45,458 nucleotides of DNA from a bacterium (lineage in GTDB: Bacteria; Bacteroidota; Bacteroidia; Chitinophagales; Chitinophagaceae), in NCBI GenBank assembly GCA_027364635.1, contig DAHXOZ010000006.1, forward strand, positions 1-45,458, written 5' to 3'. The translations under genes and the position numbers were made by a program. The notes below the pieces were generated by a model. The model ran no database searches, was not told where the DNA came from, and saw only the letters and a program-made list of their open reading frames with translations. How positions within the stretch are numbered: position 1 is the stretch's first letter; each line of letters opens with the position of its first letter. This document shows positions 1,570-40,009 of the stretch, piece by piece.

Positions 1570-4500
1570 TTATGTTTCAGTTACTGTTTCTATGCTGTTA
1601 TTTTTTTTATTTTTTTTCCCGGAAAATAGAATATAGAGTGCCGGTAAAACGATCAGGGTTAAAGCTGTTGCAGAGAAGATGCCGCCAATAACTACTGTAG
1701 CTAATGGTCGTTGTACTTCAGCTCCCTGTGAAGTGGCAAGCGCCATGGGTAAAAATCCCAAGGCAGCGAGAAACGAGGCCATTAACACGGGCCGCAGAAT
1801 AGCTCTTGTACCGTGTATCACTCTTTCTTTCACATCTGCCATTCCTTCCTTTTGAAGCTTGTTGAAATAATTGACAAGTACAATTCCGAACAGAACTGCT
1901 ACTCCGAAAAGAGCAATAAATCCAACACCCGCACTAATACTAAAGTTTATCCCACGCATCCATAGAGCGAATACGCCGCCGATTGCTGAAAAGGGAATGG
2001 CGGTATAAATGAGCAATGCCTGCTTTACAGAGTCAAAGGCTGCGTACAATAATAAAAATATCAGCACGAGTGCGATCGGTACGGCTATCATTAAGCGTTG
2101 AGTGGCTTTAACGAGATTTTCAAACTGGCCGCCATAAGTATAATAATATCCTGTTGGAAGTTTTACCTGTTCCCCTAACTTTCTTGAAATCTCTTCCACC
2201 ACAGATTTTACATCCCTTCCACGTACATTAATACCAATCACAATTCTTCTCTTTGCATCTTCCCTGCTTATTTGTGCAGGCCCGTTTACATAATCAATTG
2301 TGGCTACTTGTTTAAGTGGGATTTGCCCTCCACTAGGTAAAGGGACAAAAAGATTACGTACATCTTCAATGTCTTGCCTTTGTGCTTCACTTAACCGTAC
2401 TACTAAATCGAATTTTCGCTCATTTTCAAAAACAGTACCTGCTTTTTCTCCGGCAAAGGCTGTGCGAAGAATGCGATTCAAATCCTGGATATTTAAACTG
2501 TATTGGGCAACGCGGTCACGATTATAAGCCACAGTAATCTGTGGTAAACCCGTCACTTTTTCTACCTGTGGAGAAGCGACTCCTTCGACTGTTTCAATTA
2601 CTTTAGCAGTTTTGTCTGCATAAAAAGCAAGCGAGTCAAGATTTTCGCCGAAAATCTTAACAGCTATATCCTGTTTTACCCCGGTCATCAATTCATTAAA
2701 GCGCATTTGTATTGGCTGAGAGGCTTCGAAAGACACTCCGGGAATTACTCTAAGTGCTTTCAGCATGGTGTCTTGTAAAGTTTCCCTGCTGTGTGCTGTT
2801 GTCCATTCTTTTTGGTCTTTTAAAATAACAGTAATGTCACTGGCTTCGGGCGGCATTGGGTCAGTAGGAATTTCCGCACTGCCGGTTTTACTAACTACTT
2901 CTTTTACTTCAGGGAAACGAAGTAAAATCGTTTCTACCTGTTTATTATTATCAAGGCTTTGAGACAGGGATGAACCTTGCGGCAAAATAGAACTAAAAGT
3001 AAAATCGCCCTCTTCAAGTGTTGGAATGAACTCTCCGCCTAATCTTGAAAAGATGAAAACTGTTGCTATTAGAAATAATACAGCAATTCCGATTACCGCG
3101 AATTTTCTCTTAATAGCAAAATTGATCAGCGGCCTATATCCTCTTTGAAATAAATCCATCAGCTTGTCACTAAAATTCTTTTTATGCGTAGTTTTTTTGC
3201 TAAGCACTAAAGAGCTCATCATCGGAATGTAGGTAAGTGAAAGTATCAATGCACCAATTACTGCGAATGAGACGGTCATGGCCATAGGGCCAAACATTTT
3301 TCCTTCAATACCAACAAGGGTCAAAATAGGAATGTAAACTATTAGAATAATAAATTGTCCGAAAGTAGAGCTGCTGGCTACACTGGAAGCAGACTCATAT
3401 ACCTCGCTGTTCATTTGCTCTGCTGTAAGCATACCAGCGCCCTTGTGATGCCGGTGGCTTTGTGTAATTCGGTGCAGCACTGCTTCAACAATAATTACAG
3501 CGCCATCCACTATTAATCCAAAATCCAAAGCGCCAAGTGACATAAGATTTCCTGAAACATGAAATAAATTCATTAGGATAACCGCAAACAACATAGCGAG
3601 GGGAATAACCGAGGCTACTAAAAGCCCTGCTCTAAAATTCCCAAGAAGAAGAACCAACACGAAAATTACGATCAACGCACCATCTAAAAGATTGCTTTCG
3701 ACTGTTGCTATACTTTTATTAACCAGTACAGTACGGTCAAGGTAAGGCTCAATTCTAACCCCTGCTGGTAAAGATTTCTGAATATCCGGCAGTTTATTTT
3801 TTATGGCTTCCACTACATCAGCGCTGTTTGCGCCTTTTAGCAGCATTACTACGCCGCCAACAACTTCTCCTTCTCCATTGCGTGTCATAGCGCCGTAACG
3901 AATGGCGCTTCCAAATTGAACAGTTGCCACATCCCGAATAAGAACGGGCGTTCCGTTAGGATTTGTTTTTACAACTATTTTACCAATATCTTCCAAAGAG
4001 GTAACCAAACCCAACCCGCGTATAAAATAAGCATTGGGTTTTTTATCTATGTAAGCCCCGCCCGTATTTTCATTATTTTTTTCCAATGCATCAAACACCT
4101 GTGGTATGGTTATATCCATACTCTTTAGCTTGATAGGATCAATGGCCACTTCATATTGTTTTAACAAGCCGCCAAAGCTGTTCACCTCTGCAACACCCGG
4201 CGTTCCTAAAATTCTTCTTGCTACCACCCAGTCCTGCAATGTTCGTAAATCGGATGCACTGTATTTATTTTCATATCCTTTGTCAGGACGAATCACATAT
4301 TGATAGATTTCCCCTAACCCTGTACTTACGGGCCCCATTTCGGGTGTACCGGTACCTGGTGGTATTTCTCCTTCAGCCTCTTTAATTCTCTGGGCTACCA
4401 GTTGCCGTGCAAAATATATATCTACATTGTCTTTGAATACAATAGTAATTACTGATAGTCCAAAACGGCTAATGCTCCGGATTTCAACTAAGTCAGGCAG

Positions 4501-4725
4501 TGTAGCCATGCTGCGTTCTATAGGGAAAGTCACAAATTGTTCAACTTCCTGAGAAGCAAGGGTAGGGCTCGTTGTAATAACCTGTACCTGATTGTTGGTA
4601 ATGTCAGGCACTGCATCAATAGGAAGCTGGGTTAATGAATAGGTTCCATAGATGATTAATGCTATGGTGAAAAGGCCGATTGCAAATTTATTTTTTATTG
4701 AGAATTGAATGATTTTATTGATCAT
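1570..4725 (-). CDS. czcA: HME-RND heavy-metal efflux pump (CzcA family), cassette 1
   Basis: Inner-membrane proton/metal antiporter of the heavy-metal RND family, 1051 aa, full length. The start MINKIIQFSIKNK, TM1 and 'PIDAVPDITNNQVQV' are typical. The TM4 relay LDFGLIVDGAVIIVEA (about 400-415) keeps both Asp residues and the Glu, which is the divalent (Zn/Co/Cd) CzcA pattern rather than the monovalent CusA pattern. In the second half, around residue 940, it reads AVLFGIVLVNYF where the paralogue at 8017-12384 reads AVLNGIVLVSEF, so a conserved region has changed. Unlike its paralogue it has no TolC domain and no separate TolC gene is nearby. It starts 11 nt after the microprotein gene. Confidence 0.93.
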   Translation of the reverse strand: MINKIIQFSIKNKFAIGLFTIALIIYGTYSLTQLPIDAVPDITNNQVQVITTSPTLASQEVEQFVTFPIERSMATLPDLVEIRSISRFGLSVITIVFKDNVDIYFARQLVAQRIKEAEGEIPPGTGTPEMGPVSTGLGEIYQYVIRPDKGYENKYSASDLRTLQDWVVARRILGTPGVAEVNSFGGLLKQYEVAIDPIKLKSMDITIPQVFDALEKNNENTGGAYIDKKPNAYFIRGLGLVTSLEDIGKIVVKTNPNGTPVLIRDVATVQFGSAIRYGAMTRNGEGEVVGGVVMLLKGANSADVVEAIKNKLPDIQKSLPAGVRIEPYLDRTVLVNKSIATVESNLLDGALIVIFVLVLLLGNFRAGLLVASVIPLAMLFAVILMNLFHVSGNLMSLGALDFGLIVDGAVIIVEAVLHRITQSHRHHKGAGMLTAEQMNSEVYESASSVASSSTFGQFIILIVYIPILTLVGIEGKMFGPMAMTVSFAVIGALILSLTYIPMMSSLVLSKKTTHKKNFSDKLMDLFQRGYRPLINFAIKRKFAVIGIAVLFLIATVFIFSRLGGEFIPTLEEGDFTFSSILPQGSSLSQSLDNNKQVETILLRFPEVKEVVSKTGSAEIPTDPMPPEASDITVILKDQKEWTTAHSRETLQDTMLKALRVIPGVSFEASQPIQMRFNELMTGVKQDIAVKIFGENLDSLAFYADKTAKVIETVEGVASPQVEKVTGLPQITVAYNRDRVAQYSLNIQDLNRILRTAFAGEKAGTVFENERKFDLVVRLSEAQRQDIEDVRNLFVPLPSGGQIPLKQVATIDYVNGPAQISREDAKRRIVIGINVRGRDVKSVVEEISRKLGEQVKLPTGYYYTYGGQFENLVKATQRLMIAVPIALVLIFLLLYAAFDSVKQALLIYTAIPFSAIGGVFALWMRGINFSISAGVGFIALFGVAVLFGIVLVNYFNKLQKEGMADVKERVIHGTRAILRPVLMASFLAALGFLPMALATSQGAEVQRPLATVVIGGIFSATALTLIVLPALYILFSGKKNKKNNSIETVTET

Positions 4726-8016: not shown

Positions 8017-11000
8017 TTAAAGACCGGAAATTAATTCCAGTTCTATTGCGGTTAAGTTATATTGATTAATTACTTCTATGTATTGACGGCGGACATTGTT
8101 GGCATTGTTTAAAGATTGGGATAATTGATAATAATCAATTTCACCTGCCTCAAATGCTCTTTGAGATTTGTTGATAAGCAATTCTGCCTGTGGCAAAGCG
8201 GTTTTGCGGAAATAGCCGATTTGTATCTGAAGCCTTCTTAAATCTGAAAGAAGCAAGGTGCCTCTTTGGGAAAGACCGAAATAAAATGCCTGTACTTCTG
8301 CTTCACGTATCTGCATATTTATTTCCGCAGCACGTATTTTCGCCTTTTGTGGTTTGGCAAAAAGGGGAATACTGATTCCTGCTTCAATGCCCTGGAACCG
8401 CTTACCTGCACCATAGTATTTTTCCCCTCCATTTTTTGGATGATTGCCCACTAATGACTGATTAAAGTATCCTACGCTAAAATCCGGAAGAAGCCTGGCC
8501 TTCTGCACCTTTATTTCTTTTGCCGCTACTTCTATCTGGCTGCGCAATGATTGCAATACCGGATTGTTTCCCAGGATAGAGCTATCCAAACTTAATAACA
8601 CTGTTTTCTCTTTCAACACGCTATCCTCAATACCTGTGATAGTGGTATCATTCATATACTTGCTTAAGAGTTTTAAGTTCGTGTTGATGTACTCATCTAC
8701 CTGTTGCCGTTGGGCAATGGCTTCCTGCAATTGGGTGTTGGCATTGTATTTTTCCAGAATATTCGTTTCACCGGTATTAAACCGGATCTCAGCAGCTTTT
8801 AAAACCCGTTCATACAAAGTGATTAAGGTATCTGCCAATTTTCGCTGTTCATTCCTGTAAAGCAATTGGTGATAAACATTCTTTACCTGAAAGGCTATCT
8901 GGCTCTGATAAATCTTCAGTTGAGAACGGCTGGCGCCTATAGAGGCATCTGCAAGTTCTTTAAGCCTTTTTAGGTAAACAGGATTTGGAATGTTTTGGGT
9001 AATGGTAATGTTATTGTCGTAAGGTATCGGGCTATTGTACTGCCCGTAAGTGAGGTTGATATTGGTTTTACCGATATCTCCTGTACTTCCTTTTAACGTT
9101 TGCTGATATTCGACACCCAGATTTCCTACTCTCATATTTGGATTAGCACTTAGAGAATTGGTTACTGCTGTCTGCAAATTCACTTTATTACTGACAGGGC
9201 TTTGTGCGTAGGAATAATTGGTACTACCCAACAATAAAAACAATATGGTTATGATAGTAGGAATTGTGGACTTTCTTCTCCTTATCTTTATTTTTTCAAA
9301 CATGGTATAAAGCACCGGCAATACAATGAGCGTTAAGAATGTCGCTGTTATCAATCCACCTATAACAACAGTAGCCAAAGGCTTTTGAACTTCTGCACCG
9401 GCACCATGTGATAATGCCATTGGTAAAAACCCTAACGAAGCAACAGTAGCAGTCATTAATACAGGCCGTAGCCTTGTTGCGGTACCTGTAAGAATAATCT
9501 TGTTCAAATTACGCATACCATTCTTTTTTAGCTGGTTAAACTCACTGACCAGCACAATTCCGTTTAGCACAGCTACCCCAAACAGTGCAATAAATCCAAT
9601 ACCTGCGGAAATACTGAAAGGCATTCCTCTTAGCCATAATGCGAATATGCCACCTATAGCAGATAGGGGAATGGCTGTAAAAATTAATAAGGAATATTTG
9701 ATAGAACCAAAAGCAAAATATAGTAATAAAAGAATCAGGCCCAGCGCTACCGGAACGGCAACAGATAATCGTTTATTAGCTTCTTCCAGGTTTTTGAACT
9801 GGCCGCCATAAGTAATGAAATAGCCCGTGGGCATTTTTATTTTCGCATCAATCTTTTGTTGCATTTCTTTTACCACCGAAGCAATATCCCTGCCTCTTAC
9901 ATTGAAGCCAACGATAATTCTTCGCTTACCATCTTCTCTCTGAATTTGGTTAGGGCCTAATTGAAAGCTTATATTCGCAACCTGTTCCAATGGAATATTT
10001 TTTCCGTCTTTGGTGGTAACAAAAAGCCTTTTTACATCATCTATACTTTGGCGTTCTGCTTCCTGAAGGCGTACTACCAAATCAAATCGCTTTTCTCCTT
10101 CAAATACAGTACCGGCAACACCACCTGCAAATGCGGTGTTAATTGCCTGGTTAATGTCTGAAACATTCAATCCATACTGAGCAATTTTATCACGATTGAG
10201 TTTGATAGAAATCTGTGGCAGTCCGGTTAACTGTTCCAGGTATAAATCCTCCGCACCTTTTACCGTTGGAACGATAGCGCCTATTTTTTTTGATAATTCT
10301 GTTAATACCTGCAGGTCTTCGCCAAATATTTTAATACCCACATCTTGTTTAACACCTGATAATAATTCATTGGACCGCAATTGGATTGGCTGAGAAAACC
10401 CGAATGTAACACCCGGAATTACTTCAAGGCTTTTCTCCATCAGTTCAGTGAGTCCTTCCCGGGTCTCGGCGCTAGTCCATTCTGCTTTTGGCTTTAATAT
10501 AACGGTTACATCAGCAGCCTCAATAGGCATAGGGTCTGTGGGTATTTCAGACGAGCCAATTTTGCCAATCACTTCTTTTACCTCCGGAAATGTTTTCATT
10601 AAAATATCAGAAGCCTGGGTTACTTTATCTATGGATTGGCTTAACGAACTTCCTGTGAGCAACCTGGTTTCAATAGCAAAATCCCCTTCATCCAGGGTGG
10701 GTATAAATTCGCCCCCAAGAGTAGAGAATACAACTAATGAAATAGCCAGAAGGCCTACTGCAATACCCACTACTAATAATCTCATTCGTAAAGCGCCTTT
10801 AATAAGTGGCTCATACCACTTTTGAACGCGAGCCATCATTCTATCAGAAATATTCTTTTTATGACTGATATTCTTACTTAAAAACAAAGAACTAATCATT
10901 GGCACATAAGTAACTGATAAAATTAAAGCGCCCAGGATAGCAAAAGAAACGGTCTCAGCCATTGGCCTGAACATTTTACCTTCCACGCCTACCAATGCAA

Positions 11001-12384
11001 GAATCGGTAAATAAACTATTAGAATAATAATTTGTCCGAAAGCCGCGGAATTCATCATTTTTTTTGATGCAGTACCCACTTCGCTATCCATTTCTGCCTG
11101 GGTTATTCTTCCCGCCTTTCGACGAGCGATATGATGCATGGTAGCTTCTACAATAATGACTGCACCATCCACAATTAATCCAAAATCTATTGCGCCAAGG
11201 CTCATAAGATTGCCGGTTACACCAAACACCTTCATTAAGGAAATAGCAAAAAGCATGGCTAACGGAATCACAGAGGCGACTATCAATCCTGACCGTACAT
11301 TTCCAAGGAAAACGACCAGTACAAAAATTACAATTAATGCTCCTTCCAATAGATTTTTCTCAACAGTACTAATGGCTCTTGCTACAAATTCACTTCTGTC
11401 TAAAAATGGCTCTACAACAACTCCCTCCGGTAGGGATTTATTTATTTGAATCATTTTTTCTTTAACGCTGTTTACAACTGCACTCGCATTGCTTCCTTTT
11501 AACAACATTACAATACCACCTACCGCTTCTTTATCATTCCGGGTGAAGGCGCCATAACGATTAGCAGCACCAAATTTAACAGTGGCTACATCGCGGATGG
11601 TAACCGGAACGCCACTTTCTGTATTCTTTACTACAATTCTTTCAATGTCGCCCAGGTTTGTTATCAGGCCTTCACTTCTTATGAAATAAGCATTTGGTTT
11701 CTTATCAATGTAAGAACCACCGGTGTTTTGATTATTGTTTTCAAGCGCGGTAAATATGTCTGATATGGAAATATTGTAGCTCCTTACCCTGTCAATATTC
11801 AAAGCAATTTCATATTGCTTCAAATAACCGCCAAAGCTATTTACTTCCGCTATACCCGGGGTTCCTAACAATTGTCTTCTTACAATCCAATCCTGAATGG
11901 TGCGCAGGTCCATCGCATTGTATTTGTCTTCATATCCTTTTTTAGCATGTAACACGTATTGGTATATTTCACCCAAACCCGTGGAAATAGGAGCCATTTC
12001 CGGCAGGCCTAAGCCGGGCGCTATAGAATTTTTAGCTTCGGTTATCCGTTCTGATACTTGCTGGCGCGCCCAATAAATATCGGCATCATCATGAAATATT
12101 ACCGTAACTACTGAAAGCCCAAAACGGGAAATGGAACGCACTTCCTCAATTTCAGGAATGGTTGCCATGGTCTGTTCTACGGGGAAAGAAATAAATTGCT
12201 CTACTTCCTGTGCTGCCAGCGAAGGGCTTATTGTAATAATTTGAACCTGGTTATTGGTAATGTCGGGGATAGCGTCTATTGGTAATTTTGAAGCGCTCCA
12301 TGCCCCCCAAATAATAAGGGCGAGCGTAAAAATCCCTATAACCAGTTTATTTTTAATGGAAAAATCAATGATCTTATTTAGCAT
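8017..12384 (-). CDS. czcA: CzcA-type heavy-metal RND pump fused to a TolC outer-membrane factor
   Basis: A 1455-aa fusion. Residues 1 to about 1036 are a full CzcA-type antiporter ('PIDAIPDITNNQVQI'; TM4 relay IDFGLIVDGAVIIVEA with two Asp and Glu; 'AVLNGIVLVSEF' in the second half). After a basic linker (KIKIRRRK) comes a second signal-like segment, TIPTIITILFLLLGS...SYAQ, with an AQ-S cleavage-like site near 1061. About 394 residues of TolC/OprM family follow (coiled-coil repeats, 'GIEAGISIPLFAKPQKAKI'). The internal signal suggests the polypeptide is cut so that the TolC part reaches the outer membrane. Such fusions are known in Bacteroidota. Together with CzcB it makes a complete tripartite divalent-metal exporter. 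Confidence 0.92.
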   Translation of the reverse strand: MLNKIIDFSIKNKLVIGIFTLALIIWGAWSASKLPIDAIPDITNNQVQIITISPSLAAQEVEQFISFPVEQTMATIPEIEEVRSISRFGLSVVTVIFHDDADIYWARQQVSERITEAKNSIAPGLGLPEMAPISTGLGEIYQYVLHAKKGYEDKYNAMDLRTIQDWIVRRQLLGTPGIAEVNSFGGYLKQYEIALNIDRVRSYNISISDIFTALENNNQNTGGSYIDKKPNAYFIRSEGLITNLGDIERIVVKNTESGVPVTIRDVATVKFGAANRYGAFTRNDKEAVGGIVMLLKGSNASAVVNSVKEKMIQINKSLPEGVVVEPFLDRSEFVARAISTVEKNLLEGALIVIFVLVVFLGNVRSGLIVASVIPLAMLFAISLMKVFGVTGNLMSLGAIDFGLIVDGAVIIVEATMHHIARRKAGRITQAEMDSEVGTASKKMMNSAAFGQIIILIVYLPILALVGVEGKMFRPMAETVSFAILGALILSVTYVPMISSLFLSKNISHKKNISDRMMARVQKWYEPLIKGALRMRLLVVGIAVGLLAISLVVFSTLGGEFIPTLDEGDFAIETRLLTGSSLSQSIDKVTQASDILMKTFPEVKEVIGKIGSSEIPTDPMPIEAADVTVILKPKAEWTSAETREGLTELMEKSLEVIPGVTFGFSQPIQLRSNELLSGVKQDVGIKIFGEDLQVLTELSKKIGAIVPTVKGAEDLYLEQLTGLPQISIKLNRDKIAQYGLNVSDINQAINTAFAGGVAGTVFEGEKRFDLVVRLQEAERQSIDDVKRLFVTTKDGKNIPLEQVANISFQLGPNQIQREDGKRRIIVGFNVRGRDIASVVKEMQQKIDAKIKMPTGYFITYGGQFKNLEEANKRLSVAVPVALGLILLLLYFAFGSIKYSLLIFTAIPLSAIGGIFALWLRGMPFSISAGIGFIALFGVAVLNGIVLVSEFNQLKKNGMRNLNKIILTGTATRLRPVLMTATVASLGFLPMALSHGAGAEVQKPLATVVIGGLITATFLTLIVLPVLYTMFEKIKIRRRKSTIPTIITILFLLLGSTNYSYAQSPVSNKVNLQTAVTNSLSANPNMRVGNLGVEYQQTLKGSTGDIGKTNINLTYGQYNSPIPYDNNITITQNIPNPVYLKRLKELADASIGASRSQLKIYQSQIAFQVKNVYHQLLYRNEQRKLADTLITLYERVLKAAEIRFNTGETNILEKYNANTQLQEAIAQRQQVDEYINTNLKLLSKYMNDTTITGIEDSVLKEKTVLLSLDSSILGNNPVLQSLRSQIEVAAKEIKVQKARLLPDFSVGYFNQSLVGNHPKNGGEKYYGAGKRFQGIEAGISIPLFAKPQKAKIRAAEINMQIREAEVQAFYFGLSQRGTLLLSDLRRLQIQIGYFRKTALPQAELLINKSQRAFEAGEIDYYQLSQSLNNANNVRRQYIEVINQYNLTAIELELISGL

Positions 12385-32408: not shown

Positions 32409-32468
32409 CCTCTTACATTTTCATTCCACCCATGTCCATTCCGGCCATCGGGTTTGCGCCTTTTCTAA
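32409..32468 (-). repeat. direct repeat flanking mercury module B (right copy, inside cusB 3' end)
   Basis: The 3' end of the intact cusB gene plus 4 nt beyond its stop. It matches 29305-29364 in the same orientation at about 55 of 60 positions; the two copies are about 3.1 kb apart and enclose exactly the four mercury genes and their promoter. Confidence 0.8.
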
Positions 32469-33723
32469 AAATATATTCGCTTTGTAAAAGATAAGCGCCC
32501 GATGTTACTACTGCGTCATTCTGCTGAATGCCTGATTTTATTTCAATCATATTCGCGCTTTCCATGCCGGTTTCAACCATCACGCTTTTAAATTTATTTT
32601 GAGAAGTTTCTATCCATACCATCGCCATTTTCCCGTCTCTTAAAACGGCATCTGATGGCAGGAAAAGAGCATTTACTCCGCCGGTTTTTACAGTGATATA
32701 AGCGGACATTCCCGGTTTCAGTTGATTTCCTTCATTGGTAACGGGTATCCTGATAAGATTGATTCTTGAAGCGGTATTTAATTCAGGATTTTGAAACGAA
32801 ATTTTGCCTGGAAATTTTTTTCCCGGAATGTCCGGTATTTCTATCATAACATTTTTCGCATTATTCAATTGTGCAAGTTGCGTAGCATATACCTGTGCTT
32901 CCACCCAAAGGGTCGAAAGGCCAGCGAGCTTTACTATACTACCTCCTTCGGAAACATAATCTCCTTCCTGTAGATTTAGCTCGGTGATATATCCTGATGC
33001 GGTACTGAAAAAAGTAGTGCGCGGATTAGCAAGCGCTCCTTTATTGATATTCTTTACTTGTTGCTCACTCATGCCCCAAAGAAGTAATTTGTTTTTTGCG
33101 GCATCAATAACATCATCAAAATTGATAACTGAATTGCCAAGCGTTTCTTTCTTTTGCAAAGCGAGTATATACTCTTGCTTTGCATTGTTCAATTCTTCGC
33201 TATAAATATCATATAGCGGTGCGCCTTTCGTAACATAATCGCCGATTTTTTTGAAATACAATTTCTCTATACGACCGCCAACTCTTGCGCTAACGTCATT
33301 TATTTTCGTTTGATCGAAATTCAACGTCCCGGTTAAAACCACTTGATTCCCTACGAAGGCATTACCGATTGTATCTAACTGGATATTTCCTAATTGCATT
33401 TGTTCAGGACTAAGAGCAAGTTCATCATTATCTGCCTGTTGATTGCTCTTCTTAACCGGTGTTAAGTCCATGTGGCAGATAGGACATTTGCCAGGTTTTG
33501 ATTCTACTACTTGAGGGTCCATTGAACACGTATAATAGATATCCGGGTCTGCCGCTATTTGTGTTTTATTTTTGCATGATGCAATTAACACCACAACTAA
33601 CAACATCAATGATGAAAAAATAATCAAACGATGTCTGCTCTTTCTTCTATTCAACTTAGGTCGAAATAGAGATTCCAAACTTGTTTTTTTTTGTGGCTTA
33701 TTATATTCAGAGACATTTTTCAT
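32413..33723 (-). CDS. cusB: CusB-type RND adaptor with heavy-metal-binding domain (second adaptor)
   Basis: A 436-aa periplasmic adaptor. A long basic N-terminus leads to a TM/lipobox segment (LMLLVVVLIASC). The heavy-metal-binding domain follows (YYTCSMDPQVVESKPGKCPICHMDL in outline: TCSMDP and CPICHMD), then lipoyl 'GGRIEKLYFKKIGDYV', alpha-hairpin, second lipoyl, beta-barrel, and a Met-rich tail (NPMAGMDMGGMKM) suited to Cu(I)/Ag(I). Starts 2 nt after the other adaptor. Together they may form the mixed adaptor ring of the Cus complex. Its 3' end is duplicated at 29305. Confidence 0.9.
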   Translation of the reverse strand: MKNVSEYNKPQKKTSLESLFRPKLNRRKSRHRLIIFSSLMLLVVVLIASCKNKTQIAADPDIYYTCSMDPQVVESKPGKCPICHMDLTPVKKSNQQADNDELALSPEQMQLGNIQLDTIGNAFVGNQVVLTGTLNFDQTKINDVSARVGGRIEKLYFKKIGDYVTKGAPLYDIYSEELNNAKQEYILALQKKETLGNSVINFDDVIDAAKNKLLLWGMSEQQVKNINKGALANPRTTFFSTASGYITELNLQEGDYVSEGGSIVKLAGLSTLWVEAQVYATQLAQLNNAKNVMIEIPDIPGKKFPGKISFQNPELNTASRINLIRIPVTNEGNQLKPGMSAYITVKTGGVNALFLPSDAVLRDGKMAMVWIETSQNKFKSVMVETGMESANMIEIKSGIQQNDAVVTSGAYLLQSEYIFRKGANPMAGMDMGGMKM

Positions 33724-33725
33724 GA

Positions 33726-34988
33726 TTACTGTTTTAATTTTATAAATCCTTCACTATCTATTAAAAATTGTGCATTTATTGCTACACTATCTTTTGTATC
33801 CAAACCATCAGTCACCTGGATTAAATTCTTAGCTACAATACCTGTACTTACCTGGTGTGCTTTAAAGACATTTCCTTTTTTTAGAAAAACTATTTTGTTC
33901 AATCCGAGGGAAAGCACCGATTCTTTTGGCAGCCAATTACTAAACTTTGTTTGAATGTTTAGCGTGGCTTTTACCTGGCTTCCTACAGGTATCATTGATT
34001 TGGAATTATTAATATAAACCCTTGCAGATATTGTTTTAGAACCATTTTTATAAAAGGGTTCTATAAAATTAATTTTAGAAAAAATCTTTTTATCAGGCGC
34101 CGTTTCAGGAATGATGGTTACCGGCGTACCAACTTTTATTAAGGAATTTTCTCCGGGAAAAAGGTTTAGAGTGACCCAAACATTATTCACATTATTTACC
34201 TGGAATACCGGCTGTCCTTTTTCTACATACATACCTTCCTTTATTGATAATTCACCCGATTCATTCATAGGAATTATTTGTTGTGATGAATTCATATTTC
34301 CTGTTTCATGTACATGGCCGGTGTAACTGCTATAAATGGTAACACTGTAGATCGCTTTACCTGTCGCAATAACTTTTTGCAATTGGTTATTATTCATGCC
34401 GAGCAATAACAATCTTTGTTTTGCTGCATTGATTAGCGGTGTGTTTGTTGGGTCATTTTTTATTAGGAACAATAAATTTTGTTGTCCCGTTAAAAGTTCA
34501 GGACTGTAAATATCCATCACTTTATCGCCCGCACGCACAGGCTGATAGCGGTATTTTATATACAGTTTTTCTATCCGTCCCGAAACTCTTGCCGATATCG
34601 TTTTCATAAATCTGGTATCATACTCCACGCTACCCAACGCATCTAATTGTATCTCCTGATTGGCAAATTGCATGGTGGTAACGGGTATAGAAGATACTAC
34701 TGTGTTATTATCGCTTTGAAGTAATGTTGAAAGGTCAACTTCCGAAATTTCCCTGCTTGCATTTTCTTTTTTTACCAAAGGCATTCCACAAATAGGGCAA
34801 TTGCCCGGCTCATGCCTTATTATCTGCGGATGCATAGGGCAGGTATAGGTTTCTTCTGTGCCAGCATTTGCTGAAACCTTTTTATCAGAATTGTCTTTGC
34901 ATCCCGTGAAAGTGAAAAAAGCAGTGGCAAGGATAAAAACAAAAGATTTCAGTATAATTGATTTTCTGATTTTCATATTCATATTCAT
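33726..34988 (-). CDS. cusB: CusB-type RND adaptor with heavy-metal-binding domain (first adaptor)
   Basis: A 420-aa lipoprotein (lipobox FTGC near residue 30). Domain HMBD: YTCPMHPQII and CPICGMPLV (about 48-72), then lipoyl halves around 'SGRIEKLYIKYRYQPV', a short hairpin and 'GMYVEKGQPVFQVNNVNNVW'. It delivers Cu(I)/Ag(I) to CusA and braces the tripartite pump. The ATG overlaps the cusC stop (ATGA), so translation is coupled. It differs from the second adaptor in lacking the Met-rich tail. Confidence 0.9.
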   Translation of the reverse strand: MNMNMKIRKSIILKSFVFILATAFFTFTGCKDNSDKKVSANAGTEETYTCPMHPQIIRHEPGNCPICGMPLVKKENASREISEVDLSTLLQSDNNTVVSSIPVTTMQFANQEIQLDALGSVEYDTRFMKTISARVSGRIEKLYIKYRYQPVRAGDKVMDIYSPELLTGQQNLLFLIKNDPTNTPLINAAKQRLLLLGMNNNQLQKVIATGKAIYSVTIYSSYTGHVHETGNMNSSQQIIPMNESGELSIKEGMYVEKGQPVFQVNNVNNVWVTLNLFPGENSLIKVGTPVTIIPETAPDKKIFSKINFIEPFYKNGSKTISARVYINNSKSMIPVGSQVKATLNIQTKFSNWLPKESVLSLGLNKIVFLKKGNVFKAHQVSTGIVAKNLIQVTDGLDTKDSVAINAQFLIDSEGFIKLKQ

Positions 34989-36244
34989 TTTTGTTCAAGT
35001 GTCTTATCCATCTGCACCTGAAGATTTAATAATTCCTGTAACTGGTCGAGATAATCGAGTTGGGTCATGTTGAGTGTTTGCCAGGCATCGAATAATTCAA
35101 ATAATTCTCCTGTGTTTTGTTCATAAGCCAACTGCATAGTTTGATAATTTTTTTTCAATGCCGGAATAATATTTCCTTCAAACAATTGCAATTGTTTTTT
35201 CTTACTTTTAATAGAAGAAAGTAATCCGTTAGCCTCTCCGGCAGCTTTATTGATAATTACTTGCTTCTCAGCTTCTATGGATTGGGCTTTCCATTTTAAA
35301 CTTTCAATATTGGCTTTATAAGAGCCCGAAGACCAGGGGGCTAACGGGATTTTAACCATAGCCATTAAAGAAAATTGCCAGGGGCTTTTTCCAAATCCCA
35401 TCATGTGATCATATTTAATTCCAAACTGCGGTAGTTGCCTCGTTCTTTCAAGATTCAGTTGAAGTTGATTGATCTCTAAATCCTGCATTACTGCTTTTAT
35501 ATCACTCCGATTCTGTAATAAATAGTTGCTATCAACAGGATTATAATTTTTGATTGTATAATTTGTGTCAATAACAAAGTTTTCATTCCTATCACGATTC
35601 ATTAAAGTATTCAACAGGATTTGTTTCTGCTTTATTTCGTTGTTCAATTGCTCGCGCTGGTTTTCTATTTTCCCCAACTCTGCTTTTGCTTTGTAATAAG
35701 CATTTAGTTTCCCCAGATTATTTTTGTACCGCAATTCTGTACTTTGAATCATAAAATTCAGCAGCTTTTCATTATCATTTAGTACGGTTTGTTTTTTTTC
35801 AATAACCAGCCAATCGTAATAATTTTTCTTTGCTTCGGCATATAAATTATTGAGAGAAAATTGTTTATTTTCTTTATTTACTGATGACAAAGCCTGCAGA
35901 TATGCTGCGTTGGCATTTTGTTCTTTTTTATTGGGAAACATTTGCGAAGCGCTAACCATGAAAGAACCCATTCCGTTTTGAGTGCCCCTTGGTGTAGCCA
36001 TAACTTTTGTAAGGCCAATATTATAGGGTGTCATATAAAAACCTGCACCAAATTCAGGTGGTGCCCAGCTTTTAGCGCCCTTGGCCACTTCATCCGAAGA
36101 GCGGATCTCTGCGTCATACATTTTCATTTCCGGATGATCTTTTTGGATGATTGAAAATATATTTTCAAGATTCATCTTTTGCTGTCCGTAAGTGGTTACA
36201 GCAAACAAACAAATAATGGAAATTCCTGTTAGTGATCGTTTCAT
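34985..36244 (-). CDS. cusC: TolC-family outer-membrane factor of the Cus system
   Basis: I start it at 36244 (MKRSLTGISIICLFAVTTYGQQ), which gives a normal signal peptide and a 4-nt gap after cusA; the track start is 13 codons upstream inside cusA. 419 aa. Typical TolC/OEP features: 'LENIFSIIQKDHPEMKMYDAEI', two coiled-coil repeats, 'FSLMAMVKIPLAPWSSGSYKANI' near the second strand, and 'NTGELFELFDAWQTL' at the end. It forms the outer-membrane exit of the Cus pump. Confidence 0.87.
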   Translation of the reverse strand: MKRSLTGISIICLFAVTTYGQQKMNLENIFSIIQKDHPEMKMYDAEIRSSDEVAKGAKSWAPPEFGAGFYMTPYNIGLTKVMATPRGTQNGMGSFMVSASQMFPNKKEQNANAAYLQALSSVNKENKQFSLNNLYAEAKKNYYDWLVIEKKQTVLNDNEKLLNFMIQSTELRYKNNLGKLNAYYKAKAELGKIENQREQLNNEIKQKQILLNTLMNRDRNENFVIDTNYTIKNYNPVDSNYLLQNRSDIKAVMQDLEINQLQLNLERTRQLPQFGIKYDHMMGFGKSPWQFSLMAMVKIPLAPWSSGSYKANIESLKWKAQSIEAEKQVIINKAAGEANGLLSSIKSKKKQLQLFEGNIIPALKKNYQTMQLAYEQNTGELFELFDAWQTLNMTQLDYLDQLQELLNLQVQMDKTLEQK

Positions 36245-36248
36245 AATT

Positions 36249-38189
36249 TTAATGTTTTGCATCAGGTACTTCAATTTTGCCATATTTTTTTAACTCGTAT
36301 TCTTTACTCATCAAAAAGATAATTGGCGTTACTAAAAGAATATGAATTGATGATGTAAATACTCCACCAATCATAGGAAGAACAATAGGTATCATCACAT
36401 CGCTTCCAACTCCTGAACTCCAAAGAATAGGAATCAGGCCAAAAAGGATCACACAAACGGTCATTATTTTTGGCCTTACCCGTTTGGCAGCGCCAAGTAT
36501 CACATATTCCCTTAAATCGGCTTTGCTAATGGTTTCCCTTGAATTGCCTTTTAATGCTATCAACTGATCCATCGCATCATAGAGGTAAATGATCATTACC
36601 ACACTGGTTTCCACCGCCAAACCAAACAGCGCAATAAAGCCAACAGCCACCGCTATTGATAAATTTACTCCCCAGAAGTATATCATGAATGCACCTCCAA
36701 TTAAAGCAAAAGGAAGAGAGACTAAACTTAACAAAGCCTCCCTAACAGAATGAAATGCAAAATACATGGAGAAAAAAATGATCAGCAACACAATCGGCAA
36801 AATGATCTTCATCGTTTTTTCGCTGCTCAATAAATTTTCATATTGTCCGCTCCAGTCAATAAAATAACCTTTTGGCAATTTAGTAAGCATCGTATTTAAT
36901 CTTGACTGCGCTTCCTGCACCGTTCCCGCAAGGTCTCTATCTCTTACATTAAACAAAACCGTTCCACGCAATAAGGCATTCTCAGAATTAATCATTGGCG
37001 GCCCTTCGGTAATCGCAATATCTGCCACTGCATTTAATGGAATCGGGCCAAACTCCTTGGTTTGTACCAGCAAACTTTTCAGCGCTTCCATATTATCCCT
37101 AAAATCCTGTCCATAGCGTGCGATGACCGGAAATCGTTGCCGGCCTTCGATTGTGGTTGTAAGTTTCATTCCGCCCAAGGCGCTCTGTACCACTGCGTTC
37201 ACATCATCCACGGTTAAACCATAACGGCTGATTTCGTCTCTTTTGATTTTAATGTCAATATACTTTCCACCTGTAATTGGTTCTACATACAAATCTTTCA
37301 CGCCGTTGATTCCCTGCAATTCATTTTTTATTTTTTGGGAAAAAGCGTAAATCGTATCCAAATTTTGTCCATACACTTTCACTCCAACATCAGTCCTGAT
37401 GCCGGTTGACAGCATATTGATGCGGTTAATGATTGGTTGTGTCCATCCATTGGTAACGCCGGGAATTTGCAATTTGCTGTTCAGTTCATTGATAATATCT
37501 TCTTTTGTTTTTCCGGCTCTCCATTCAGATTTTGGTTTTAATAAAACAATAGTCTCAATCATACTAATAGGAGAATTATCAGTGGCTGTATTCGCCCTTC
37601 CTGCTTTGCCTAAAACATTTTTCACTTCCGGCACGGAAGCAATAATTTTATCCTGAACCTGCAGGATTCTTTTTACTTCAGTATTAGAAACATCTGGCAT
37701 CATCACAGGCATGAATAATATAGAGCCTTCATCTAACGGCGGCATAAATTCGCGACCCAAACTTAAAATCAGTGGAATACTTACCAGTAAGGCAATGATA
37801 TTAATAGCTATGGTTGTTTTGCGCCATTTGATGCACAATCGAATGACAGGTTCATAAATCTTGCGCAATCCTTTATTTAACGGGTTTGCAGATTCAGGTG
37901 TAAATCTTCCTTTCAGAAAGAAGGAGATCAAGACTGGAGTAAGGGTTAACACCAGAATAGCATCTATTGCAATAATGAAAGTTTTGGTGTATGCCAAAGG
38001 ATGAAACAATTTCCCTTCCTGCCCCGTAAGTAAAAATATAGGAAGAAAGGAAGCAATAATTATAATAGTTGAAAAAAATACGCCTCTGGAAACCTGTTTG
38101 CATGAGCGTTCTATAATACTTAATCTTACCTCTTTCGGTATTTTTACATAATTCTTTTTAGTTACTATTTTTTTAAAAATGTTTCTCAT
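36249..38189 (-). CDS. cusA: CusA-type RND pump, C-terminal part of a split gene
   Basis: The start used is ATG 38187-38189 (MRNIFKKIVTKKN), one base after the stop of the N-terminal ORF. 646 aa, from just before TM5 ('GVFFSTIIIIASFLPIFLLTGQEGKLF') through the second periplasmic domain to TM12. It keeps the relay Glu (GLAVETSVVMIIYL, about 555) and Lys (RVRPKIMTV). With the upstream ORF it totals 1073 aa, the size of a whole CusA. The first ~20 residues are a basic, possibly amphipathic extension with no counterpart in E. coli CusA. Whether the two halves assemble is open. Confidence 0.85.
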   Translation of the reverse strand: MRNIFKKIVTKKNYVKIPKEVRLSIIERSCKQVSRGVFFSTIIIIASFLPIFLLTGQEGKLFHPLAYTKTFIIAIDAILVLTLTPVLISFFLKGRFTPESANPLNKGLRKIYEPVIRLCIKWRKTTIAINIIALLVSIPLILSLGREFMPPLDEGSILFMPVMMPDVSNTEVKRILQVQDKIIASVPEVKNVLGKAGRANTATDNSPISMIETIVLLKPKSEWRAGKTKEDIINELNSKLQIPGVTNGWTQPIINRINMLSTGIRTDVGVKVYGQNLDTIYAFSQKIKNELQGINGVKDLYVEPITGGKYIDIKIKRDEISRYGLTVDDVNAVVQSALGGMKLTTTIEGRQRFPVIARYGQDFRDNMEALKSLLVQTKEFGPIPLNAVADIAITEGPPMINSENALLRGTVLFNVRDRDLAGTVQEAQSRLNTMLTKLPKGYFIDWSGQYENLLSSEKTMKIILPIVLLIIFFSMYFAFHSVREALLSLVSLPFALIGGAFMIYFWGVNLSIAVAVGFIALFGLAVETSVVMIIYLYDAMDQLIALKGNSRETISKADLREYVILGAAKRVRPKIMTVCVILFGLIPILWSSGVGSDVMIPIVLPMIGGVFTSSIHILLVTPIIFLMSKEYELKKYGKIEVPDAKH

Positions 38190-38190
38190 T

Positions 38191-39474
38191 TTATTTAGGT
38201 TTATTAGCAGGATTGTTTTGCCATTCAGATAAGTTGTGATACGCGTTTTCCGACATGATAATGCCATTGTCAACAATAACTCCTATAGCCAGCGCTATCC
38301 CTGTAAGCGACATAATATTGGAAGAAAGGCCAAACGCATTTAGTAAAATAAAGCTGATGGCAATCGTGACGGGAATCTGGATAATGATATTCAGGGCGCT
38401 GCGCCAATGAAACAGGAAGAGTAAAACGATCAGCGAAACTGCGATCATTTCTTCTATTAATTTTCCTTTGATATTTTCTATGGCAGCTTCAATTAATGTG
38501 CTGCGGTCGTACGCGAATTTAAAATGAACTCCCTCAGGCAATCCTTTTTCAACCACTTCCATTTTTGCTTTTACATCATGAATTACTTTATCAGCGTTTT
38601 CCCCATATCGCATCACTACTATTCCTCCAACAACTTCTCCTTCGCCATTTTGATCAAAAATGCCTAACCGTTCGCCGCCGCCTAACTGTACTGTACCAAT
38701 ATCTTTTATCCTGACAGGAATACCGTTGTTATTGGCAATTCCTATGTTTTCGATGTCTTCTTTGTTCTTTATGTAACCAAGACCGCGAATAATGTAAGAC
38801 ATATCGCTCATCTCAAATTTTCGTCCACCAACATCATTGTTATTGGCTTTCACTTTGTTCATCACATCCATCAGCGAGATATTGTAATACTGCAATTTCA
38901 ATGGATCAACCACGATTTGGTATTGCTTTTCAAAGCCACCGAAAGATGCTATTTCTGCAACCCCGGGAACGGTTTGCAAAGCAAATTTGATGTACCAGTC
39001 CTGCAAAGTTCTTTGCTCGCCGAGGTCTAAATTTTTAGCGTCTAACGTGTACCAAAGAATATGCCCAACGCCTGTTCCATCAGGGCCGAGCGCAGGAGTA
39101 ACACCGGGCGGAAGCAAACGCTGTGCATAATTCAAGCGTTCCAACACGCGGGTTCTTGCCCAATAAATATCTACATTATCTTCAAAAATTACATACACAA
39201 AACTCATCCCGAACATAGAAGTGCCGCGAATGTTTTTGACCTTTGGAATACCCTGGAGGTTGGATACCAAAGGGAATGTGATCTGGTCTTCCATGATCTG
39301 TGGGCTTTGGCCTTCCCATTCTGTAAAAACAATTACCTGGTTTTCCGAAAGATCGGGAATGGCATCAATCGGATTTTTTTGTACGGCGTAGATTCCCCAC
39401 GCAAACAAGCTCAATGCAATTACCAAAACAATATACCTGTTGCGGAGTGAAAGTTCAATTAGTTTCTGAACCAT
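38191..39474 (-). CDS. cusA: CusA-type RND pump, N-terminal part of a split gene
   Basis: 427 aa: TM1 ('IVLVIALSLFAWGIYAV'), 'NPIDAIPDLSENQVIVFTEW', the first periplasmic domain with 'GTSMFGMSFVYVIF', and TM2-TM4 ending IGVIVDNGIIMSENAYHNLSEW. The single relay Asp (no DFG Asp) marks a monovalent Cu(I)/Ag(I) pump. The ORF then stops (KPK-TAA) in the cytoplasmic loop before TM5. The sequence reads CCT AAA TAA A ATG, so reinitiation on the second half is possible. First pump gene of the operon, 148 nt after a HYC_CC_PP gene. Confidence 0.87.
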   Translation of the reverse strand: MVQKLIELSLRNRYIVLVIALSLFAWGIYAVQKNPIDAIPDLSENQVIVFTEWEGQSPQIMEDQITFPLVSNLQGIPKVKNIRGTSMFGMSFVYVIFEDNVDIYWARTRVLERLNYAQRLLPPGVTPALGPDGTGVGHILWYTLDAKNLDLGEQRTLQDWYIKFALQTVPGVAEIASFGGFEKQYQIVVDPLKLQYYNISLMDVMNKVKANNNDVGGRKFEMSDMSYIIRGLGYIKNKEDIENIGIANNNGIPVRIKDIGTVQLGGGERLGIFDQNGEGEVVGGIVVMRYGENADKVIHDVKAKMEVVEKGLPEGVHFKFAYDRSTLIEAAIENIKGKLIEEMIAVSLIVLLFLFHWRSALNIIIQIPVTIAISFILLNAFGLSSNIMSLTGIALAIGVIVDNGIIMSENAYHNLSEWQNNPANKPK

Positions 39475-39622: not shown

Positions 39623-40009
39623 TCAAATTCTAAAAACGCAATTGAAAATATAATCCGGAACCGTATGAAGTAGCGGCGGCGCATTGCTTAGGTTAGCAAT
39701 ATAAATTTCCTGAGAAGGAAAATTAATTACCTGAAAAGATAAAGGAAATAAATGTAAATTGATAAAGTGTAAAACAGGTGTGCAAATTACATCAGCGGTA
39801 ACATGATTATCTTTTACTTTAAAGAATTGATATTTTGTTTTGCAGCAATCGCTTGTGCCATCATCGTTAGCACAGGTCTGTTGTTCGTGCTGCGTAATTG
39901 AAACAGTTACTGATTTTAAATTACCACAACAATAAAAACTTTTCAGACTTAACCCTAACGATGAGATAGAGTATATGCTAAGAAGTAATATGACGGTAAT
40001 TTTTTTCAC
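39623..40009 (-). CDS. HYC_CC_PP family protein, upstream of the Cus operon
   Basis: A 128-aa protein close to the classical HYC_CC_PP form: signal/TM (KKITVILLLSIYSISSLGLSL), FYCCGNLKS in the HYC position, TSDCCKTKYQFFKVKDNH (CC near 53), and NAPPLLHTV near the end. Start is GTG at 40007-40009 with a TATCTTTG box ending 8 nt before it. Less His-rich than the other two copies. Position suggests the first gene of the Cus transcription unit. Function unknown; probably envelope located. Confidence 0.72.
   Translation of the reverse strand: MKKITVILLLSIYSISSLGLSLKSFYCCGNLKSVTVSITQHEQQTCANDDGTSDCCKTKYQFFKVKDNHVTADVICTPVLHFINLHLFPLSFQVINFPSQEIYIANLSNAPPLLHTVPDYIFNCVFRI

Follow-up and report, generated by a model that had tools for sequence, protein, structure and literature searches.

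In this work we have analysed a window of 45,458 nucleotides (positions 1-45458) from a genome of the family Chitinophagaceae, in which the gene of a CusA-type RND permease is divided between two open reading frames (ORFs). The genes and features of the locus are the following:

38191..39474, minus strand: cusA N half, an ORF of 427 aa with TM1-TM4 and the first periplasmic loop
36249..38189, minus strand: cusA C half, an ORF of 646 aa with TM5-TM12 and the second periplasmic loop
38187..38193, minus strand: the junction TAA-A-ATG in the sequence, that is, the N-half stop, 1 nt and the C-half start
34985..36283, minus strand: TolC/CusC-type outer membrane factor (Pfam OEP, 4.7e-28), overlapping the C half by 35 nt
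33726..34988, minus strand: CusB-type adaptor with an N-terminal heavy-metal-binding domain (Pfam HlyD_D23 and HMBD; match to the CusB model)
32413..33723, minus strand: second CusB-type adaptor with a heavy-metal-binding domain (Pfam HlyD_D23 and HMBD; CusB model, 1.5e-44)
39623..40009, minus strand: small protein of the HYC_CC_PP family (NCBIfam NF047658, 1.7e-8), just upstream of the N half and possibly, with some uncertainty, the first gene of the operon

On the minus strand the junction reads ...AAT AAA CCT AAA TAA, A, ATG AGA AAC...; the N half ends in NKPK, and a single A at position 38190 lies between the halves, the ATG of the C half occupying 38187-38189. The C half starts with a basic stretch, MRNIFKKIVTKKNYVKIPKEVR, with a net charge of +7. 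Compared with E. coli CusA, the N half aligns with residues 8-431 (E 8e-136) and the C half with residues 440-1042 (E 3e-164), and combined they span the whole protein with just a few linker residues unaligned, so that no part of the pump is missing. The Pfam ACR_tran model is broken at its position 419/420, with 2-419 in the N half and 420-1019 in the C half. The separate halves score 607.6 and 472.8 bits with the NCBIfam model for the CusA/CzcA family, TIGR00914, and miss its cut-off of 701 because each of them is too short; the summed score would pass it. In the alignment, the Cu(I)-binding Met triad M573/M623/M672 corresponds to M160/M210/M259 and E625 to E212, the triad being entirely within the C half, while the proton relay is divided: CusA D405 is D402 of the N half (38269-38271), and E939 and K984 are E527 and K574 of the C half.

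A structure was predicted with AlphaFold2 from a joined single chain (TAAA read as one step) and an alignment of separate halves plus a few natural fusions. The joined model, of moderate confidence (pLDDT 73.5, pTM 0.71), finds its best PDB matches in E. coli CusA and CusBA, with TM-scores of 0.86-0.90; from its input, what it supports is the CusA fold, not a two-chain assembly. Junction residues 428-441 have a pLDDT below 50 and lie between helix 387-419 (TM4) and helix 447-475 (TM5), a position that in RND pumps is a cytoplasmic loop. The original prediction, made from these letters alone, had described two ORFs of 427 and 646 aa joined through NKPK-TAA, one A and ATG, the second with a basic N-terminus and all the remaining CusA domains, the relay Asp, Glu and Lys kept, and the break between TM4 and TM5 outside the membrane; the ORF coordinates, the alignments and the predicted helices agree with it on every one of these points.

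The operon partners expected for a CusA-type permease, a CusB-type adaptor and a TolC-type channel, are present according to Pfam and NCBIfam. By its homology, Met triad, relay and operon, the split locus is thus classified as a CusA-type (HME, Cu+/Ag+) RND permease, and its lack of a single polypeptide is counted as a variant and not as an exclusion, since re-fused members are nested among its relatives. The other two RND permeases of the window (1570-4725 and 8017-12384; CzcA-like) have no Met triad, and Leu/Val stand at the positions of E939 and K984, so the CusA-type gene is the split one. The second of these, at 8017-12384 on the minus strand, is a single ORF of 1455 aa in which a CzcA-like permease is naturally fused to a TolC-type outer membrane factor, the reverse of the split CusA that the window also contains; frames of 1450-1490 aa like this one occur in other genomes. 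With translations judged by eye, the window resembles a metal-resistance region, with three RND systems, a copper P-type ATPase, a multicopper oxidase, and mercuric-reductase-like and arsenic genes.

How widespread is the split? It had been proposed to look for it in related strains, and this search found it throughout the close relatives, isolates and complete plasmids included. Within the genus, the 1-nt gap recurs identically in two relatives (L005, L007), and in a third (L004) the halves overlap by 4 nt at this position, which excludes chance or error. A stand-alone C-half frame of ~640-680 aa was found in the genus, the family and the order, and altogether ~140 distinct related loci across Bacteroidota bear the same split. 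Nearly all of the 80 loci from named genomes are split, among them loci of Ferruginibacter, Sediminibacterium, Hydrotalea, Pedobacter, Mucilaginibacter, Larkinella and Rufibacter, with L112 as the sole fused exception. The split is also present in complete plasmids of Haliscomenobacter, Adhaeribacter and Spirosoma, and for the first two RefSeq gives two separate genes, each named 'efflux RND transporter permease subunit'. In a phylum-wide sample, full-length C-half matches of at least 56% identity were split, and a group of other lineages at ~53% was fused (~1049 aa); sampling the class more densely added split members that branch deeper, with a few fused genes among the split ones. Two Hymenobacter plasmids (L140, L141) carry a further diverged pair whose C-half gene is interrupted again and apparently decaying. 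On Spirosoma linguale plasmid pSLIN02 (L224, 3548-6905) both halves are intact ORFs, yet no protein is listed; one locus tag, Slin_6876, is skipped in this stretch, which is possibly annotated as a pseudogene.

Trees were built from the N and C halves with the junction columns omitted (FastTree, 96 rows; IQ-TREE, 63 rows). All split and permuted members fall in one clade with a support of 100, adjoining the fused outgroups, and the permuted loci are monophyletic within it, also with a support of 100. These eight loci of one clade have the operon order C half - TolC - CusB - CusB2 - N half (gene identities taken from L201 with Pfam), with the N half 3.5-5.9 kb downstream of the C half. A putative ninth case, L107_225, was judged to be an adjacent copy truncated where the locus ends, and we left it out of the tree. 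Four fused genes (L112, L188, L181 and L187) are nested within the split clade, and the tree requires four state changes. Topologies in which all fused genes group together, or in which any of these four joins the ancestral fused genes, are rejected by AU tests, and with them an ancestral fused state in place of re-fusion. These data are most simply read as a single split, a single permutation and three or four re-fusions, the latter in nested lineages that appear to have re-fused cusA; loss of the stop codon could suffice where both frames already agree.

Both halves have been maintained with their key residues. R83, D405, E567, M573, D617, M623, E625, R669 and M672 are conserved in 140 of 140 split pairs. 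E939 is kept in 131 of the 140, with Gln in 9, and K984 in 133, with Ile/Leu/Val in 7, so some members of the split clade lack an intact relay. The changed relays (L030, L092, L172, L176-L178 and L213-L215; L190, L191, L193, L194, L200 and L206), with Gln at E939 in one group and Ile/Leu at K984 in another, arose after the split. Where computable, dN/dS was 0.016-0.040 across both halves; comparing the window with the relatives nearest to it gives 0.023-0.026 (N half) and 0.034-0.040 (C half), values that are approximate since synonymous sites are near saturation. Judging from these ratios, strong purifying selection acts on both halves. At the level of sequence, then, these are two separate conserved genes, both constrained, with composite catalytic residues. 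This gives strong support to the stable two-piece pump that had been suggested from the window, and from it we infer two stable polypeptides, their assembly and the export of Cu/Ag.

We propose that a single CusA-type Cu(I)/Ag(I) permease gene was cut once at the cytoplasmic TM4-TM5 loop, in a common ancestor of the pumps that form this large Bacteroidota clade, and that both genes have been retained ever since. The N half (TM1-4) and the C half (TM5-12) would be translated as two polypeptides, in the window probably by termination-reinitiation across TAAAATG, would insert separately into the inner membrane, and would then pair into one CusA-like protomer. By the positive-inside rule, the basic N-terminus of the C half would help TM5 to start on the cytoplasmic side. 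Such a terminus is frequent among relatives and not universal, the C halves of Mucilaginibacter beginning with MTTAERIKII, and we rejected it as a necessary feature. Three N+C pairs, six chains in all, would form the trimer docking with the two CusB-type adaptors and TolC. In E. coli CusA, TM4 carries D405, which is hydrogen-bonded to K984 and E939; this helix is thought to couple proton import with metal export, and the protomers work independently (PMC8092243). In the split pumps TM4 belongs to the N half and its relay partners to the C half. An N+C pair is thus the natural expectation for each protomer, and proton-driven export would need correct pairing because the relay is formed between chains. 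We hold it very probable that CusA is stably encoded by two genes at these loci, and that its halves come together in the membrane as the usual trimer, here of six chains.

The halves might instead form a non-standard assembly, with an altered stoichiometry or with partly separate functions or partners, as separate genes that are distant or permuted in some lineages could be expressed unequally, and the relay residues are changed in some subclades. This seems unlikely to us. The genes are co-located, and the copy numbers of the N and C halves were equal (1:1, 2:2 or 3:3) in each of the 53 class-sample genomes that had a match; the distances of the two halves are correlated (r = 0.89), as would also be expected from co-inheritance alone. 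Furthermore, the residues of one mechanism are divided between the halves, and, to judge from the natural re-fusions, a covalent product with the halves at 1:1 works.

A programmed ribosomal frameshift or stop bypass, with a fused CusA as the real product, is very improbable. Stop and start are indeed very close in most loci, and the C-half frame of the window is already open 5' of the N-half stop codon. The halves overlap in 64 of 132 distinct adjacent pairs (in 49 by exactly 4 nt); the distance is 0-12 nt in 50, 13-100 nt in 6 and more than 100 nt in 12, so that 114 of the 132 junctions are overlaps or have no more than 12 nt between the halves. However, the frame relation varies between loci, all three classes occurring among adjacent pairs (59/39/19), 124 of the 132 junctions have no -1 slippery heptamer, and the window junction has no strong RNA fold (z = 0.58). 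The constant frame relation with a slippery site or stimulatory structure that marks a programmed-frameshift gene is thus missing, and we rejected the locus as a member of that class. Frameshifting would be impossible in lineages with a permuted order or with inserts, which measure 57-1073 nt in 15 loci; in several loci the halves are separated by unrelated sequence or other ORFs, for example by the 620 nt of L220 and the 1073 nt of L092, the latter including a small ORF resembling a heavy-metal-binding domain. Given the inserts, the varied frames and the permuted order, the halves are two independent genes and frameshifting is not their general mechanism. The coupled translation suggested in the original prediction fits the window and most relatives (the same 114 of 132 junctions), but tight coupling is not essential, since some relatives have the halves separated by these inserts or in reversed order 3.5-5.9 kb apart. 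Short or overlapping junctions may favour local and roughly equal synthesis, which, to judge from the spaced and permuted operons, would be helpful at most.

To the remaining reading, a one-piece cusA broken by an indel in this genome, be it a recent frameshift as originally offered, a pseudogene or an assembly error, we give practically no credence: the source of the window is a draft bin of 527 contigs and 85% completeness, and changing one base could merge both frames, but every close relative, isolates and complete plasmids included, shares the split, which is ancestral to a Bacteroidota clade of many families, with differing junction lengths, conserved catalytic residues and a dN/dS of ~0.03 (~0.02-0.04 in both halves).

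RND pumps are treated as single 12-TM chains forming trimers. We consider it likely that the two-gene CusA represents a class of stably heteromeric RND permeases with the relay running across two polypeptides per protomer, which originated in a single ancient split, was later spaced, permuted and several times re-fused, and was overlooked by surveys and models made for full-length proteins only. The pump family is known, and the halves are in public annotation as RefSeq permease subunits; our literature search, in which subscription journals were thinly covered, found no paper describing a split CusA or a split RND pump. A recent phylogeny of HME pumps dropped matches shorter than 852 aa and so could not have seen the split (PMC10872679). 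Annotation is affected as well, as such a length filter misses split pumps and each half stays below the cut-off of the CusA/CzcA model. Every pump unit would need two pieces joined, though the proton path that powers it crosses both. A protomer of 4 TM + 8 TM, with the relay Asp on one chain and Glu and Lys on the other, offers a natural test system for the folding, assembly and proton-transport coupling of RND pumps, in which the halves can be separately mutated, tagged and dosed.

How does the split pump compare with known systems? The HME-RND Cu(I)/Ag(I) exporter CusA of E. coli (PDB 3k07, 3ne5) is homologous along both halves (~42% identity) and has the same Met triad, Asp/Glu/Lys relay and operon partners of the CusB and CusC/TolC types. 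In contrast, E. coli CusA is one chain of 1047 residues, and here there are two ORFs and two genes, in the order A-N, A-C, C, B, B2 with two CusB-type adaptors; the mapped Met-relay positions M403, M486, M501 and M755 are not Met here, and K678 is Arg. The nearest outgroup in the tree consists of fused CusA-type pumps (L131-L136 and L142-L147 of the phylum sample, and L139 from the Pelobacter plasmid pPRO1), with ~46-61% identity in both halves and the Met triad kept; unlike the split pair, they are single continuous ORFs of 1049-1133 aa. The heteromeric pump MdtBC is likewise an RND trimer of two different gene products, and MdtB and MdtC, which come from a gene duplication, are each complete permeases (PMC8277102), whereas each product of the split cusA is an incomplete half. 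SecD/SecF, of the RND superfamily, is encoded by two genes in some bacteria and by one in others; there the division falls between two 6-TM units, whereas the CusA described here is cut into 4 TM + 8 TM, inside the first repeat.
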